From NCBI GenBank assembly GCA_017504945.1, contig JAFVQJ010000002.1, positions 62,001 through 126,000 on the forward strand: a stretch of DNA of 64,000 bases, in the 5' to 3' direction. Positions 17,440 through 23,622 of the stretch are shown here, piece after piece. The notes under the pieces are model-generated. The model was not told the DNA's origin, searched no databases, and worked only from the letters and a program-made list of their open reading frames with translations. The position numbers and the translations under genes are program-made. Position 1 is the stretch's first letter. The number at the start of each line of letters is the position of its first letter. The DNA is from Clostridia bacterium (GTDB taxonomy: Bacteria > Bacillota > Clostridia > Oscillospirales > RGIG5299).

Positions 17440-17457
17440 TATCTGTTCTAATTAAAT

Positions 17458-17483
17458 ATCCCGTCCGCTTACGTGAACGGGAT
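17458..17483 (-). terminator. terminator of tRNA-Arg
   Basis: ATCCCGT and ACGGGAT arms directly downstream of the tRNA 3' end, followed by A/T-rich sequence. A near copy of this hairpin occurs at 22188-22221. Confidence 0.75.
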
Positions 17484-17486
17484 TTT

Positions 17487-17561
17487 TGGCACTCCCAGCG
17501 AGAATCGAACTCACAACTAACCCTTAGGAGGGGTTTATTATATCCATTTAACTATGGGAGC
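17487..17561 (-). tRNA. tRNA-Arg (CCT)
   Basis: Cloverleaf read on the minus strand: acceptor GCTCCCA / TGGGAGT, anticodon stem AACCC / GGGTT with loop CTCCTAA giving anticodon CCT (17526-17528, codon AGG), T-loop TTCGATT. CCA is encoded at 17487-17489. Confidence 0.92.
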
Positions 17562-20809: not shown

Positions 20810-21517
20810 ATGGACAGTCAGAGAAAAGAAAAAATAACGAATATATTGGTAAACTCGGTGGGAATCGTTATATTTTTGGTCATTGCCGCCGTCATTACGG
20901 TTGTGCTTTGGCCTTATATAAGCGAATTTCTCGAAAGCCCCGAAAAACTTCAGAGCTTCGTTGCCGATAACGGCGCGCTTGCAGTGCCGCTCTATCTTGC
21001 GTTGCAGGTGCTTCAGGTCGTGGTTGCGCTGATTCCGGGCGAGGCACTCGAAATAGGTGCGGGAGCGGCTTTCGGCTGGTTTTGGGGACTTATTCTTGCC
21101 GAAATCGGCGTTGCGCTCGGCACAGTGATAATATTTGTAGTTGCAAGAAAGGCGGGACGCCGCTTTGTAGATGCGATAGTCGGCGGTAAAAAGCTTAAGG
21201 TGTTTGACAAGTTAAACACTCATCCGCGCCGCGACAGCGTAATATTTCTCGTTTTCCTTATTCCCGCGCTTCCGAAGGACCTGCTTACCTACGCCGCCGC
21301 ATTTTTCGATATTTCAATGTGGAAATTCATTTTGATGACGGCAATAGCGCGTATTCCCTCGATAATAACCTCAACGCTTGCGGCAGATTTTCTCATTGAG
21401 GGCAATTATCTTGCGGCGGTGCTCATTTTCGTCGCAACGGGAGCAATGGCGATAATCTGCTTTTTGCTTTCGGAAAAGATAATGGCAAAAATCGGGGTAA
21501 AGAAGAGCGAAGAGTGA
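20810..21517 (+). CDS. TVP38/DedA-family (VTT domain) membrane protein
   Basis: Integral membrane protein of 235 residues with an N-terminal helix, the VTT core (ALIPGEALEIGAGAAFGWFWG, then ARKAGRRFVD) and conserved FLIPALPKDLLTYAAAF. Such proteins act in lipid scrambling or membrane homeostasis; the exact role is not established for this subfamily. Its ATG abuts the stop of the GH106-like gene, so both share one transcript, with no clear functional link. A terminator follows. Confidence 0.85.
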   Translation: MDSQRKEKITNILVNSVGIVIFLVIAAVITVVLWPYISEFLESPEKLQSFVADNGALAVPLYLALQVLQVVVALIPGEALEIGAGAAFGWFWGLILAEIGVALGTVIIFVVARKAGRRFVDAIVGGKKLKVFDKLNTHPRRDSVIFLVFLIPALPKDLLTYAAAFFDISMWKFILMTAIARIPSIITSTLAADFLIEGNYLAAVLIFVATGAMAIICFLLSEKIMAKIGVKKSEE

Positions 21518-21537
21518 AAATTAAAAAGATAAAAAGT

Positions 21538-21571
21538 AAAAAATCCGTTCTCGTAAGAGAACGGATTTTTT
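21538..21571 (+). terminator. terminator after the TVP38-type gene
   Basis: AAAAAATCCGTTCTC and GAGAACGGATTTTTT arms with a GTAA loop. Confidence 0.85.
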
Positions 21572-21632
21572 GGGTAGTTTGAACTTAGTGGCACGAATTA
21601 AAGTGCTATGAAAACATGACTTTCTTTAGAAA

Positions 21633-22004
21633 TTACTTATTTATCATAAAATATGGACCGCACATGCCTTCGTGTGTTTTAATATAAGTCCATTTAAAAT
21701 CCCTGCCAACAACATATATTTCTACAAAGTCATCTAAAGCATTGGCGGTATTCAAATCACAAATCACATCCTTGGTATGCTTATCTTCAAACCACTCAAT
21801 ATAAAAAGCACCTTTTTTATCAATTTTATCATAAGCTTCTTTTGCTTTTTCTCCAATCAAATATTGGTTTTCGTTTAACAATTCCCACGAAAAGATATGC
21901 CAAATATAATTCCCCGTAGACTTAACATATTTTTGTATATCTTTTTTAGGGATATTAGATGCAAAAGCTTCAATCCACTTATTGTAGAATTCTTCTTTTG
22001 TCAT
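21633..22004 (-). CDS. DUF4275 family protein
   Basis: Small soluble protein of 123 residues of unknown function. The pattern YIWHIFSWELL, EAYDKIDKKGAFYIEWF and a C-terminal VVGRDFKWTYIKTHEGMCGPYF agree with the DUF4275 family. An AGAGGTG site precedes the ATG. Its promoter (22026-22054) shares an identical 23-bp stretch with the promoter of the neighbouring Pth2 gene. It belongs to an accessory run of single genes on the minus strand with lower GC than the rest of the window. Confidence 0.7.
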   Translation of the reverse strand: MTKEEFYNKWIEAFASNIPKKDIQKYVKSTGNYIWHIFSWELLNENQYLIGEKAKEAYDKIDKKGAFYIEWFEDKHTKDVICDLNTANALDDFVEIYVVGRDFKWTYIKTHEGMCGPYFMINK

Positions 22005-22025
22005 TGAAAATCACCTCTTGAGTGT

Positions 22026-22054
22026 ATTATAGCATAAAAGTGGCGGAAAATCAA
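22026..22054 (-). promoter_or_regulatory. promoter of the DUF4275 gene
   Basis: Minus strand TTGATT (22054-22049), 17-bp spacer, TATAAT (22031-22026) preceded by TGC (extended -10). Confidence 0.75.
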
Positions 22055-22180
22055 TGCGGAGCATTGTATTTTATAATCCGTGGCGAAGCCACACATTACT
22101 TCTTCACTATTCACTATTCCTTTTTACTTCCCAAAAATCCCGTTCGCAAAATTTTAGTGAAAAGTGAAGAGTGAAAAGGT
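22052..22180. repeat. intergenic hairpin cluster
   Basis: Non-coding stretch with perfect small hairpins CAATGC-GGA-GCATTG (22052-22066) and GTGGC-GAA-GCCAC (22080-22092), then imperfectly complementary tracts of TTCACT-type (22112-22128) and AGTGAA-type (22155-22175) repeats. It resembles small palindromic intergenic repeats. No gene is seen. Confidence 0.55.
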
Positions 22181-22187
22181 AATAAAT

Positions 22188-22221
22188 AAAAATCCCGTCC
22201 ACTTTCGTGAACGGGATTTTT
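22188..22221 (-). terminator. terminator downstream of the Pth2 gene
   Basis: AAAAATCCCGT and ACGGGATTTTT arms around a 12-base loop. It is very similar to the tRNA-Arg terminator at 17458-17483. Confidence 0.8.
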
Positions 22222-22290
22222 GGGACCGACACTCAAAATGGAACCGGTCTAAAAACCTAATTCTCTTTAGCTATTAACTTTGAAAAATTT
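22222..22290 (-). other. possible decayed tRNA 3' region
   Basis: Between the Pth2 stop and its terminator, the minus strand contains a GTCGGTCCCA end like an acceptor 3' strand with CCA-like bases, a GGTTCCATTTTGA stretch like a T-arm, and a CTAA-AGAGAA-TTAG arm. The arms no longer pair correctly and no 5' half is found, so it cannot be a working tRNA. Confidence 0.25.
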
Positions 22291-22303: not shown

Positions 22304-22726
22304 TTAATAAAGCGGTAAATCTCCTGTCAACTCGTCAGCAATATTAGCAGGCAAAGGCTCTAAAGCAAGGCAAGTCTTCGTAGGAACACCGTGAAATTCT
22401 GTCATTCCTGCATCAGTAATGACAGCGGCGATAATTCCCTTTTCTTTCGCCTTTTGTGCTATATCCAATAAAGACTCTTCAGAATCGACATAAACACATA
22501 CCTTAGCACAACCATATAAAAACCAATCAGACAAAGGAGAATTAGACTTGTCTATATTTTTCAAAACAAGACCATCTATAGTCATTTCAAAATCATTAAG
22601 GCGTCCTTCCTTTTTCAGCGCCATCAAGATAGCATCGATACAAGCATGACCTGCTTGTGCCGCTATTTTACCTTTACGCATCTTTAAATCCCGACGCATC
22701 ACAATCATCATTTTTGATTTATACAC
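22304..22726 (-). CDS. Pth2-type peptidyl-tRNA hydrolase
   Basis: Protein of about 140 residues of the PTH2 family, which is typical of archaea and eukaryotes and patchy in bacteria. It contains RRDLKMRKGKIAAQAGHA, a central AKVCVYVDSEESLL and the C-terminal ITDAGMTEFHGVPTKTCLAL, with the terminal LPLY. It would free tRNA from stalled peptidyl-tRNA. The start is uncertain: GTG at 22726 has AAGGTGG 11 bases upstream, ATG at 22711 matches the usual family start, and GTG at 22741 lies inside the ribosome binding site. A bacterial-type Pth is presumably encoded elsewhere. Confidence 0.8.
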   Translation of the reverse strand: MYKSKMMIVMRRDLKMRKGKIAAQAGHACIDAILMALKKEGRLNDFEMTIDGLVLKNIDKSNSPLSDWFLYGCAKVCVYVDSEESLLDIAQKAKEKGIIAAVITDAGMTEFHGVPTKTCLALEPLPANIADELTGDLPLY

Positions 22727-22750
22727 TGTTGCTCTCACCACCTTAGATGT

Positions 22751-22779
22751 ATTATAGCATAAAAGTGGCGAAGCCGCAA
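22751..22779 (-). promoter_or_regulatory. promoter of the Pth2 gene
   Basis: Minus strand TTGCGG (22779-22774), 17-bp spacer, TATAAT (22756-22751). The bases 22748-22770 are identical to 22023-22045 at the DUF4275 promoter. Confidence 0.7.
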
Positions 22780-22785
22780 GAGATT

Positions 22786-22961
22786 AGTGATATTCTGTGC
22801 TTCGCACAGAGTGATATTATGCCTTTCGGCATAGTGATATTTTTGCTGTCGCAAAAGTGATATTATATTCGCCTTTAAAACTCGCGAAGCGAATATCACT
22901 TGGACTTTAGTCCAAATATCACTGCGTAGCAATATCACTATGCTGAAAGGCGAATATAACT
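22786..22961. repeat. two-armed array of AGTGATATT boxes separated by hairpins
   Basis: Four direct AGTGATATT boxes (22786, 22810, 22833, 22856) are followed, after a central stem ATATTCGC/GCGAATAT (22865-22896), by inverted AATATCACT boxes (22892, 22915, 22931) and a degenerate AATATAACT (22953). Between boxes sit different short hairpins: CTGTGC-TTC-GCACAG, ATGCC-TTTC-GGCAT, TTTTGC/GCAAAA, TTGGAC-TTTA-GTCCAA. The whole can fold back on itself. No gene is seen in it. Confidence 0.85.
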
Positions 22962-22962
22962 G

Positions 22963-22996
22963 AAAAAACTCTTGTTCTTTCGAACAAGAGTTTTTT
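22963..22996 (-). terminator. terminator of tRNA-Thr
   Basis: AAAAAACTCTTGTTC and GAACAAGAGTTTTTT arms with a TTTC loop, directly after the tRNA 3' end. Confidence 0.9.
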
Positions 22997-22997
22997 C

Positions 22998-23073
22998 TGG
23001 AGCTGGTGATGCGACTTGAACGCACGACCTGCTGATTACGAATCAGCTGCACTACCGACTGTGCTACACCAGC
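22998..23073 (-). tRNA. tRNA-Thr (CGT)
   Basis: Minus-strand cloverleaf: acceptor GCTGGTG / CACCAGC, D-stem GCAC / GTGC, anticodon arm CTGAT-TCGTAA-TCAG with anticodon CGT (23038-23040, codon ACG), T-loop TTCAAGT. CCA is encoded at 22998-23000. Confidence 0.95.
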
Positions 23074-23155: not shown

Positions 23156-23494
23156 TTACGGGGGTGGGAACATAACAATTTTATAGACTTTATTCATTTT
23201 CTTTGCATACTCTGCGGTATGTTTTGTGCCACGTGAGTGACCATCCCAAAAGATAAGAACGAAGTCTGCAAGATCTACCATTTTTTCATTTCTTTTAAGG
23301 GGAGCGGCTTTACCGTAAAGCTTGTATTGCGGACGAAGAATCAACTTTGAAATGCGGTTCTTGTCTGCATATTGCTCTGCAACAGAATCAATTCCTTTTG
23401 CTCCGCCGCATATAATGAGTTCTGCGTCCTCCGGCATATATTTTGCAATATCTACATCCGTAATTGTTCGAGAACCGGCGATCAAAATTCTCAA
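23156..23494 (-). CDS. SLOG-fold YspA-like protein (DUF2493)
   Basis: Protein of 112 residues with the nucleotide-binding SLOG fold: N-terminal ILIAGSRTITD, ICGGAKGIDSVAEQYA near residue 30 and DLADFVLIFWDGHSRGT near 74. Relatives (YspA, cpYpsA, DprA-like) bind nucleotide-derived ligands and often occur near mobile or defence genes, but no function is established. TTG at 23494 is chosen because AGGTGG is 5 bases upstream; a GTG at 23503 overlaps that site. It is divergent from the XRE regulator. Confidence 0.75.
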   Translation of the reverse strand: MRILIAGSRTITDVDIAKYMPEDAELIICGGAKGIDSVAEQYADKNRISKLILRPQYKLYGKAAPLKRNEKMVDLADFVLIFWDGHSRGTKHTAEYAKKMNKVYKIVMFPPP

Positions 23495-23622
23495 ATTATC
23501 CACCTACTTATATTAATACTATAAAATATTATATCATACCTAATATTTACTATATTTTAGCATATAAATTTTTTCTTGTAAACAGAGTATAATAATTTAT
23601 AGAAAAAACGAGGAGAAAAAAT

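Follow-up and report, generated by a model that had tools for sequence, protein, structure and literature searches.

Integron cassettes place a small gene beside an attC site that is conserved in structure and not in sequence, and they occur as tandem units, while REP/REPIN and BOX repeats are palindromic modules dispersed between genes. The locus described here belongs to a recurrent mobile structured element whose closest described relatives are Gut-1 RNA and the intervening sequences (IVSs) of the IVP type. Gut-1 was listed in 2010 as certainly an RNA, found in the human gut only and with no function (PMC2864571), and its Rfam model (RF01706) consists of three hairpins separated by GUGAAAU. 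IVSs of 23S rRNA carry an ORF for IVP, the 23S rRNA-intervening-sequence protein (S23; PF05635), and in known cases the stem-loop of the IVS replaces the small loop of an rRNA helix (PMC4990558). IVP is homologous to Avd of diversity-generating retroelements (PMC10053308). We found in the open-access literature no account of arrays like those described below, nor of a link between Gut-1 and IVP.

The array lies in the window, by which we mean the whole 64-kb stretch of DNA that was analysed; the source genome (G000) comprises 1.38 Mb in 33 contigs and is 86% complete. Seven exact copies of the box AGTGATATT occur within 154 bp of the window, together with an eighth copy bearing one mismatch. 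The count of exact boxes expected across the 64-kb window is 0.32, and seven was reached in no shuffle. Small palindromes fill the intervals between the boxes, and the whole forms two mirrored arms. The array and its surroundings contain the following features:

22998..23073, minus strand: tRNA-Thr (CGT) called by ARAGORN, the target; the element begins directly after its CCA end (distance to the hairpin, 0)
22962..22997: terminal hairpin GAAAAAACTCTTGTTC-TTTC-GAACAAGAGTTTTTTC, a 16-bp perfect inverted repeat and the right end of the element
22953-22961, minus strand: variant box AATATAACT with one mismatch
22946..22959, minus strand: segment S, 5' part of arm 1, a 14-nt perfect complement of 22863-22876 with 69 nt between
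22888..22962, minus strand: arm 1, Gut-1-like, with boxes at 22953 (variant), 22931, 22915 and 22892 and hairpins between
22892, 22915 and 22931, minus strand: exact AGTGATATT boxes
22863..22876, minus strand: segment S', centre of the array, pairing and covarying with S
22776..22864, plus strand: arm 2, the mirror image, with boxes at 22786, 22810, 22833 and 22856 and perfect hairpins between
22786, 22810, 22833 and 22856, plus strand: exact AGTGATATT boxes
22776-22845, plus strand: Gut-1-like part of arm 2, from the Gut-1 match
22751..22779, minus strand: promoter-like TTGCGG - 17 nt - TATAAT, read from the sequence, leading into PTH2
22304..22741, minus strand: PTH2 gene (peptidyl-tRNA hydrolase 2; PF01981, 7e-34)

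An earlier note on this DNA had described four direct and four inverted boxes; the direct ones are indeed all exact, but the inverted ones are three exact copies plus the variant. Its setting between PTH2 and tRNA genes agrees with the PF01981 match and the ARAGORN tRNA-Thr, while its limits, 22786-22961, cover the array itself and leave out the terminal hairpin (22962-22997), the promoter and the cargo gene of the unit. Its constant boxes with variable palindromes in two mirrored arms are borne out. Over all collected arrays, 83% of the 260 distinct inter-box intervals closed end to end with at least 3 bp, compared with 5% after shuffling. The note had called this layout the reverse of a CRISPR, which is apt for its appearance but fails as an explanation: what we see is a mobile element's structured pair of arms. 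A CRISPR-like array was itself rejected on anatomy.

Both local and global folding had also been thought possible, and both strands do fold far better than shuffles (plus strand, -86.3 kcal/mol, z -9.6; minus strand, -73.1 kcal/mol, z -8.1). The pairing is conserved while the sequence changes: S and S' covary in 95 AGTGATATT arrays, for example as TTCTATTCGCC/GGCGAATAGAA, TTTTATTCGCC/GGCGAATAAAA and TATATTTGCC/GGCAAATATA. The S/S' and arm 1/arm 2 pairings cross, and therefore the unit is a pseudoknot or has two alternative folds, either of which may form in the cell. Two 21-nt stretches that each span a hairpin and a box of opposite arms, 22821-22841 and 22931-22951, are 95% complementary, and the first hairpin of arm 1 is broken. 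The window arms look as if one had been copied onto the other by template switching, a possible route by which stems change.

We compared the arms with Gut-1. Over the full length of the model, arm 1 aligned at 37.3 bits (E=3.6e-6) and arm 2 at 32.9 bits (E=4.7e-5), both missing the gathering cut-off of 50 bits; the view that the box matches no nameable element was thus incomplete. The Gut-1 plan of three hairpins and a constant box (model positions 1-77) is present in the window arms, the arm 2 match lacking the first hairpin. At the gathering threshold Rfam returned only two tRNAs in the whole window, and microRNA and leader-peptide matches obtained at an E-value threshold are most likely fold-back artefacts. 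Other arrays, some of them with the AGTGATATT box, exceed the Gut-1 gathering score (e.g. G000:C24 and C14), and Gut-1 was detected in 31 of the 59 genomes compared, with 48 occurrences in the source genome. Both window arms share with Gut-1 the arm plan and an origin in gut bacteria. However, the Gut-1 box is GUGAAAU and the window box is AGTGATATT, and the Gut-1 model covers one arm, without the mirror arm, terminal hairpin, tRNA end or gene. Because it falls below the Gut-1 cut-off and has no IVP gene, the window copy is formally neither Gut-1 nor an IVP-type IVS.

Such arrays are repeatedly copied. About 20 are present in the source genome, and the exact double AGTGATATT box occurs in 16 of the 59 genomes, all 16 from the same order; the earlier note had called for further arrays in the genome and its relatives, and a unique array absent from relatives is not what we found. 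Five copies in the source genome share 91-96% identity over 300-400 bp at unrelated sites, and identical hairpins occur in G012, a genome of another family. More than 100 loci were gathered from Oscillospiraceae and other Clostridia, nearly all of them from gut MAGs. The only match outside Clostridia/Bacillota was a triple box in the cyanobacterium Planktothricoides sp. SR001 (L161), which could be a chance match or a simple repeat. The triple-box pattern also appears in a few IMG/VR viral contigs (L202-L206), which may be prophages with inserted elements or mis-called host DNA. A search with the left end of the element for an autonomous copy with a transposase yielded no transposase; what it retrieved were elements with cargo, and arrays of other boxes bounded by these same ends. 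In L225 (G011:C2) and L228 (G056:C5), for instance, ends of AGTGATATT elements enclose arrays with GCGATATA and GTGATGT boxes, which means that ends and box type are exchangeable.

We then considered where the element inserts. In window orientation, the right end of well-preserved arrays is a perfect terminal hairpin of the same kind and in the same position as that of the window copy, and in 15 of 96 arrays, covering 11 tRNA species, it follows a same-strand tRNA at a distance of 0-2 nt. Because identical terminal hairpins occur in different genomes at different tRNAs (L080 at tRNA-Gln, L090 at tRNA-Tyr), the hairpin must be part of the element, not of the tRNA; that of the window could double as the terminator of tRNA-Thr. 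The second setting is the intrinsic terminator, whose two arms form the flanks of the element. In-silico removal of the element restores these arms, e.g. AAAACCCCCGAAGA/TCTTCGGGGGTTT or AAAGCATCTGC/GCAGATGCTTTTTT, and inverted flanks scored at least 13 in 16 of 88 elements, compared with 0 of 150 random pairings. Near-identical copies occupy unrelated terminators. An empty site was found in the sister species G001, where the ortholog of the left neighbour of L038 is followed, right after the same stop codon, by an intact terminator. A check for target-site duplication at terminator insertions showed flanks of AAT/AAT or ATT/ATT in some copies and none in others. Some arrays match neither target class. 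Of the window copy, only the right end and its junction with the tRNA can be made out clearly, the left end being a decayed remnant. Mobility of the element is well supported.

Beyond the far side of an array lies a promoter, followed by no gene at all, by a small gene or by one for IVP. We interpret PTH2 as the cargo of the window unit. An old conserved neighbour was rejected as an account of PTH2, since its homologue occurs in only one other genome among the 59, without an array there. Directly behind PTH2 is a second unit (21633-22222), whose promoter is, like that of the first, of the TATGCTATAATAC type:

22223..22255, minus strand: GACCGGTTCCATTTTGAGTGTCGGTCCC, a remnant resembling a tRNA 3' end, the boundary to the second unit
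22194..22222: terminal hairpin AAAAATCCCGTTCACGAAAGTGGACGGGATTTTT of the second unit, limits approximate
22044..22190, minus strand: array of the second unit, with simple TTCACTATTC-type arms and a small hairpin
21633..22004, minus strand: DUF4275 gene (PF14101, 8e-16), cargo of the second unit

The array of the second unit has no regular hairpins between its boxes, and arrays of its type precede IVP genes in L263, L265, L286 and L288. The PTH2 and DUF4275 units are tandem cassettes at one tRNA. A remnant of the GACCGGTTCCATTTTGAGTGTCGGTCCC type recurs in L141, from another species, ahead of an array with a different ORF, and TATGCTATAATAC promoters similar to that of the window adjoin the arrays in L141 and L092. 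Families adjoining arrays include PTH2, DUF4275, DUF4830, DMP19, NUDIX and SLOG, several of them by adjacency only and not with both element ends. L045 and L046, both from the source genome, have a backbone of 238 bp in common at 92%, L046 encoding IVP and L045 an unknown ORF. L074 (G012:C33) is a clear case of cargo: between its two element ends there seems to be a gene for a HAD-like hydrolase, complete with promoter and terminator of its own. A small gene beside a structure-conserved site and the tandem units recall integron cassettes; here, in contrast, the sites are tRNA ends and terminator loops.

Three further observations concern the neighbourhood in the window. A hairpin AAAAAATCCGTTC..GAACGGATTTTTT with a stretch resembling a tRNA end lies at 21500-21620 and is possibly another remnant. 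At 17440-17495 the terminator of tRNA-Arg is nearly identical to the terminal hairpin of the second unit, again a possible remnant, and a similar promoter and an SGNH-like gene follow it. A SLOG-family (YAcAr) gene at 23156-23503, on the opposite side of tRNA-Thr, has a 53% identical homologue near the array in L143.

Targets at tRNA and tmRNA 3' ends, one-gene cassettes, and the tandem units of the window and L141, with their tRNA-like remnants, would also fit a site-specific recombinase of the tyrosine type that is aimed at tRNA ends and moves the cassettes in trans, the array being its structured attachment site, comparable to the attC of an integron or the att site of a satellite, and IVP no more than a frequent passenger. 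A few elements do have direct repeats: L057 (22 bp) and L087 (20 bp) repeat tRNA/tmRNA ends, and L180 and L079 repeat sequence from their flanks. The duplicated end in L057 had been taken for that of tRNA-SeC, which was rejected; it is a tmRNA end. However, direct repeats of at least 13 were found in only 6 of the 88 elements, the flanks at terminator-loop insertions are inverted and not direct, and many different tRNAs serve as targets, so that the target is not one core sequence. Movement by such a recombinase is, in our judgement, unlikely.

We next examined the association with IVP. PF05635 is present in 32 of the 59 genomes, with three IVP genes in the source genome, and in 15 of the 16 AGTGATATT-bearing genomes (p=2e-4), and Gut-1 and IVP occur together in 27 genomes, Gut-1 alone in 4, IVP alone in 5 and neither in 23 (p=7e-8), all these co-occurrence tests of Gut-1, IVP and box ignoring phylogeny. 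At 15 loci a Gut-1 match precedes the IVP domain by 106-327 nt on the same strand, and IVP genes also adjoin arrays. Most IVP loci of this order, read without preselection for arrays, are preceded by the same layout with a box that differs from locus to locus (GTGATGT, GTGAAGT, AATGAAG, GATTTCAT, ATGAATTG, TTCACTATTC and others). The S-type arrangement of the window array recurs in them: 32 of 50 IVP loci contain a long-range complement of 10 bp or more, compared with 3.9% after shuffling, the complements being mostly 64-79 nt apart and unrelated in sequence. A tRNA or tmRNA lay upstream on the same strand at 22 of 50 IVP loci, and any tRNA at 0 of 21 control loci, and the median folding z upstream was -5.7 for IVP and -0.76 for control genes, contrasts that are probably somewhat too large because the controls are few and mostly coding. 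Counting against a relationship of the array with IVP elements, the window copy has no IVP gene, and neither do one of the 16 box-bearing genomes and the four genomes with Gut-1 alone.

We also analysed IVP genes in a phylum-wide sample. Six loci lay within 23S rRNA and one within RNase P RNA, the host RNAs being recognised by eye from their conserved sequence, and complementary repeated-box arms around the IVP ORF scored above the 95th percentile of swapped pairs in 19 of 28 cases. In L323 (G106:C1), the IVP gene, enclosed by complementary GGTTGGAAGTT-type arms, apparently interrupts the gene for RNase P RNA. The arms of the IVP genes in L308, L312, L314, L320 and L333 consist of short box repeats common in Firmicutes genomes (AACTAGT, GATAGCT, CAGGAGA, GATAGTTAAAC and AATTGAC), and the same repeats elsewhere may be remnants of such elements. 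The arrays resemble the IVSs of 23S rRNA in that terminator-loop copies are hairpin-loop insertions bordered by complementary sequence and that related units encode the same protein family. They differ in their sites, which are tRNA ends and terminator loops (the window copy being at the end of tRNA-Thr and not in 23S rRNA, from which RNase III excises an IVS), in having both arms together on one side of the gene with hairpins inside, and in their cargo, since the window units encode PTH2 and DUF4275 and no PF05635, which other units with the same array do encode.

The homology of IVP with Avd (PMC10053308), the proposal of Gut-1 as an RNA (PMC2864571) and targets that are RNA ends and RNA hairpins could likewise point to a retroelement, in which a reverse transcriptase would copy the array as the RNA of a retrotransposing unit and IVP would act as Avd does. 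But RVT_1 was found neither in the source genome (86% complete) nor in many array-rich genomes, and reverse transcriptases showed no association with IVP (10 of 32 IVP genomes, 9 of 27 others), in which the elements differ from diversity-generating retroelements; we consider this origin highly improbable. Copying of the palindromes on single-stranded DNA by a RAYT-type Y1 (HUH) transposase would suit the REPIN-like layout of inverted box-plus-hairpin pairs and the conserved single-stranded folding. Like REP/REPIN and BOX repeats, the elements are dispersed palindromic intergenic modules, but their stems differ within an array, they have defined ends and target sites, and no Y1_Tnp (PF01797) was found in the source genome (86% complete) or in the array-rich G012, G004, G042 and G058, nor was Y1 linked to IVP (10 of 32 IVP genomes, 8 of 27 others), so this copying has very little probability. 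We give equally little credence to a non-mobile cis-regulatory leader or terminator/attenuator of the neighbouring gene, despite the strong structure between tRNA terminator and promoter, because the promoter comes after the array and thus leaves it outside the mRNA of the gene, many copies have no gene, and near-identical copies sit in unrelated terminators.

Taken together, we think it rather probable that a small mobile element, akin to the IVP elements, has the array as its structured non-coding module. Against this reading, no joining enzyme turned up among the reverse transcriptases and Y1 transposases searched for. Such a unit runs, on the minus strand, from the terminal hairpin through arm 1, the centre and arm 2 to the promoter and the gene. 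The full version would encode IVP, and others would have another small gene (in the window, PTH2) or none, those without IVP being presumably mobilised in trans. The element enters after the CCA end of tRNAs/tmRNA or in terminator loops, and its relatives elsewhere in the phylum would enter 23S rRNA and RNase P RNA; insertion would be tolerated at such sites because the element merely lengthens a hairpin or comes after the finished RNA. IVP, as an Avd homologue, is the putative binder of the folded array, either as RNA or as single-stranded DNA, and the boxes with S/S' may be the structure recognised. One of the three IVP genes of the source genome may mobilise, or may once have mobilised, the PTH2 copy.

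More tentatively, Gut-1-type arrays and the phylum-wide IVP box-repeat arms may be one large superfamily of mobile elements that enter hairpin loops and the ends of RNAs (23S rRNA, RNase P RNA, tmRNA, tRNA and terminators), are recognised by structure and not by sequence, are moved by IVP and a new joining mechanism, and are able to carry other genes. The mirrored boxes and hairpins tie the orphan Gut-1 to genes that interrupt bacterial ribosomal RNA, so that this RNA family can be placed in a genomic setting, with IVP as its candidate protein partner. Intervening sequences, hitherto a curiosity of 23S rRNA, begin to look like a broader class of mobile elements that target hairpin loops and the ends of RNAs, and the long-standing question of how IVP functions and how intervening sequences move becomes directly testable.
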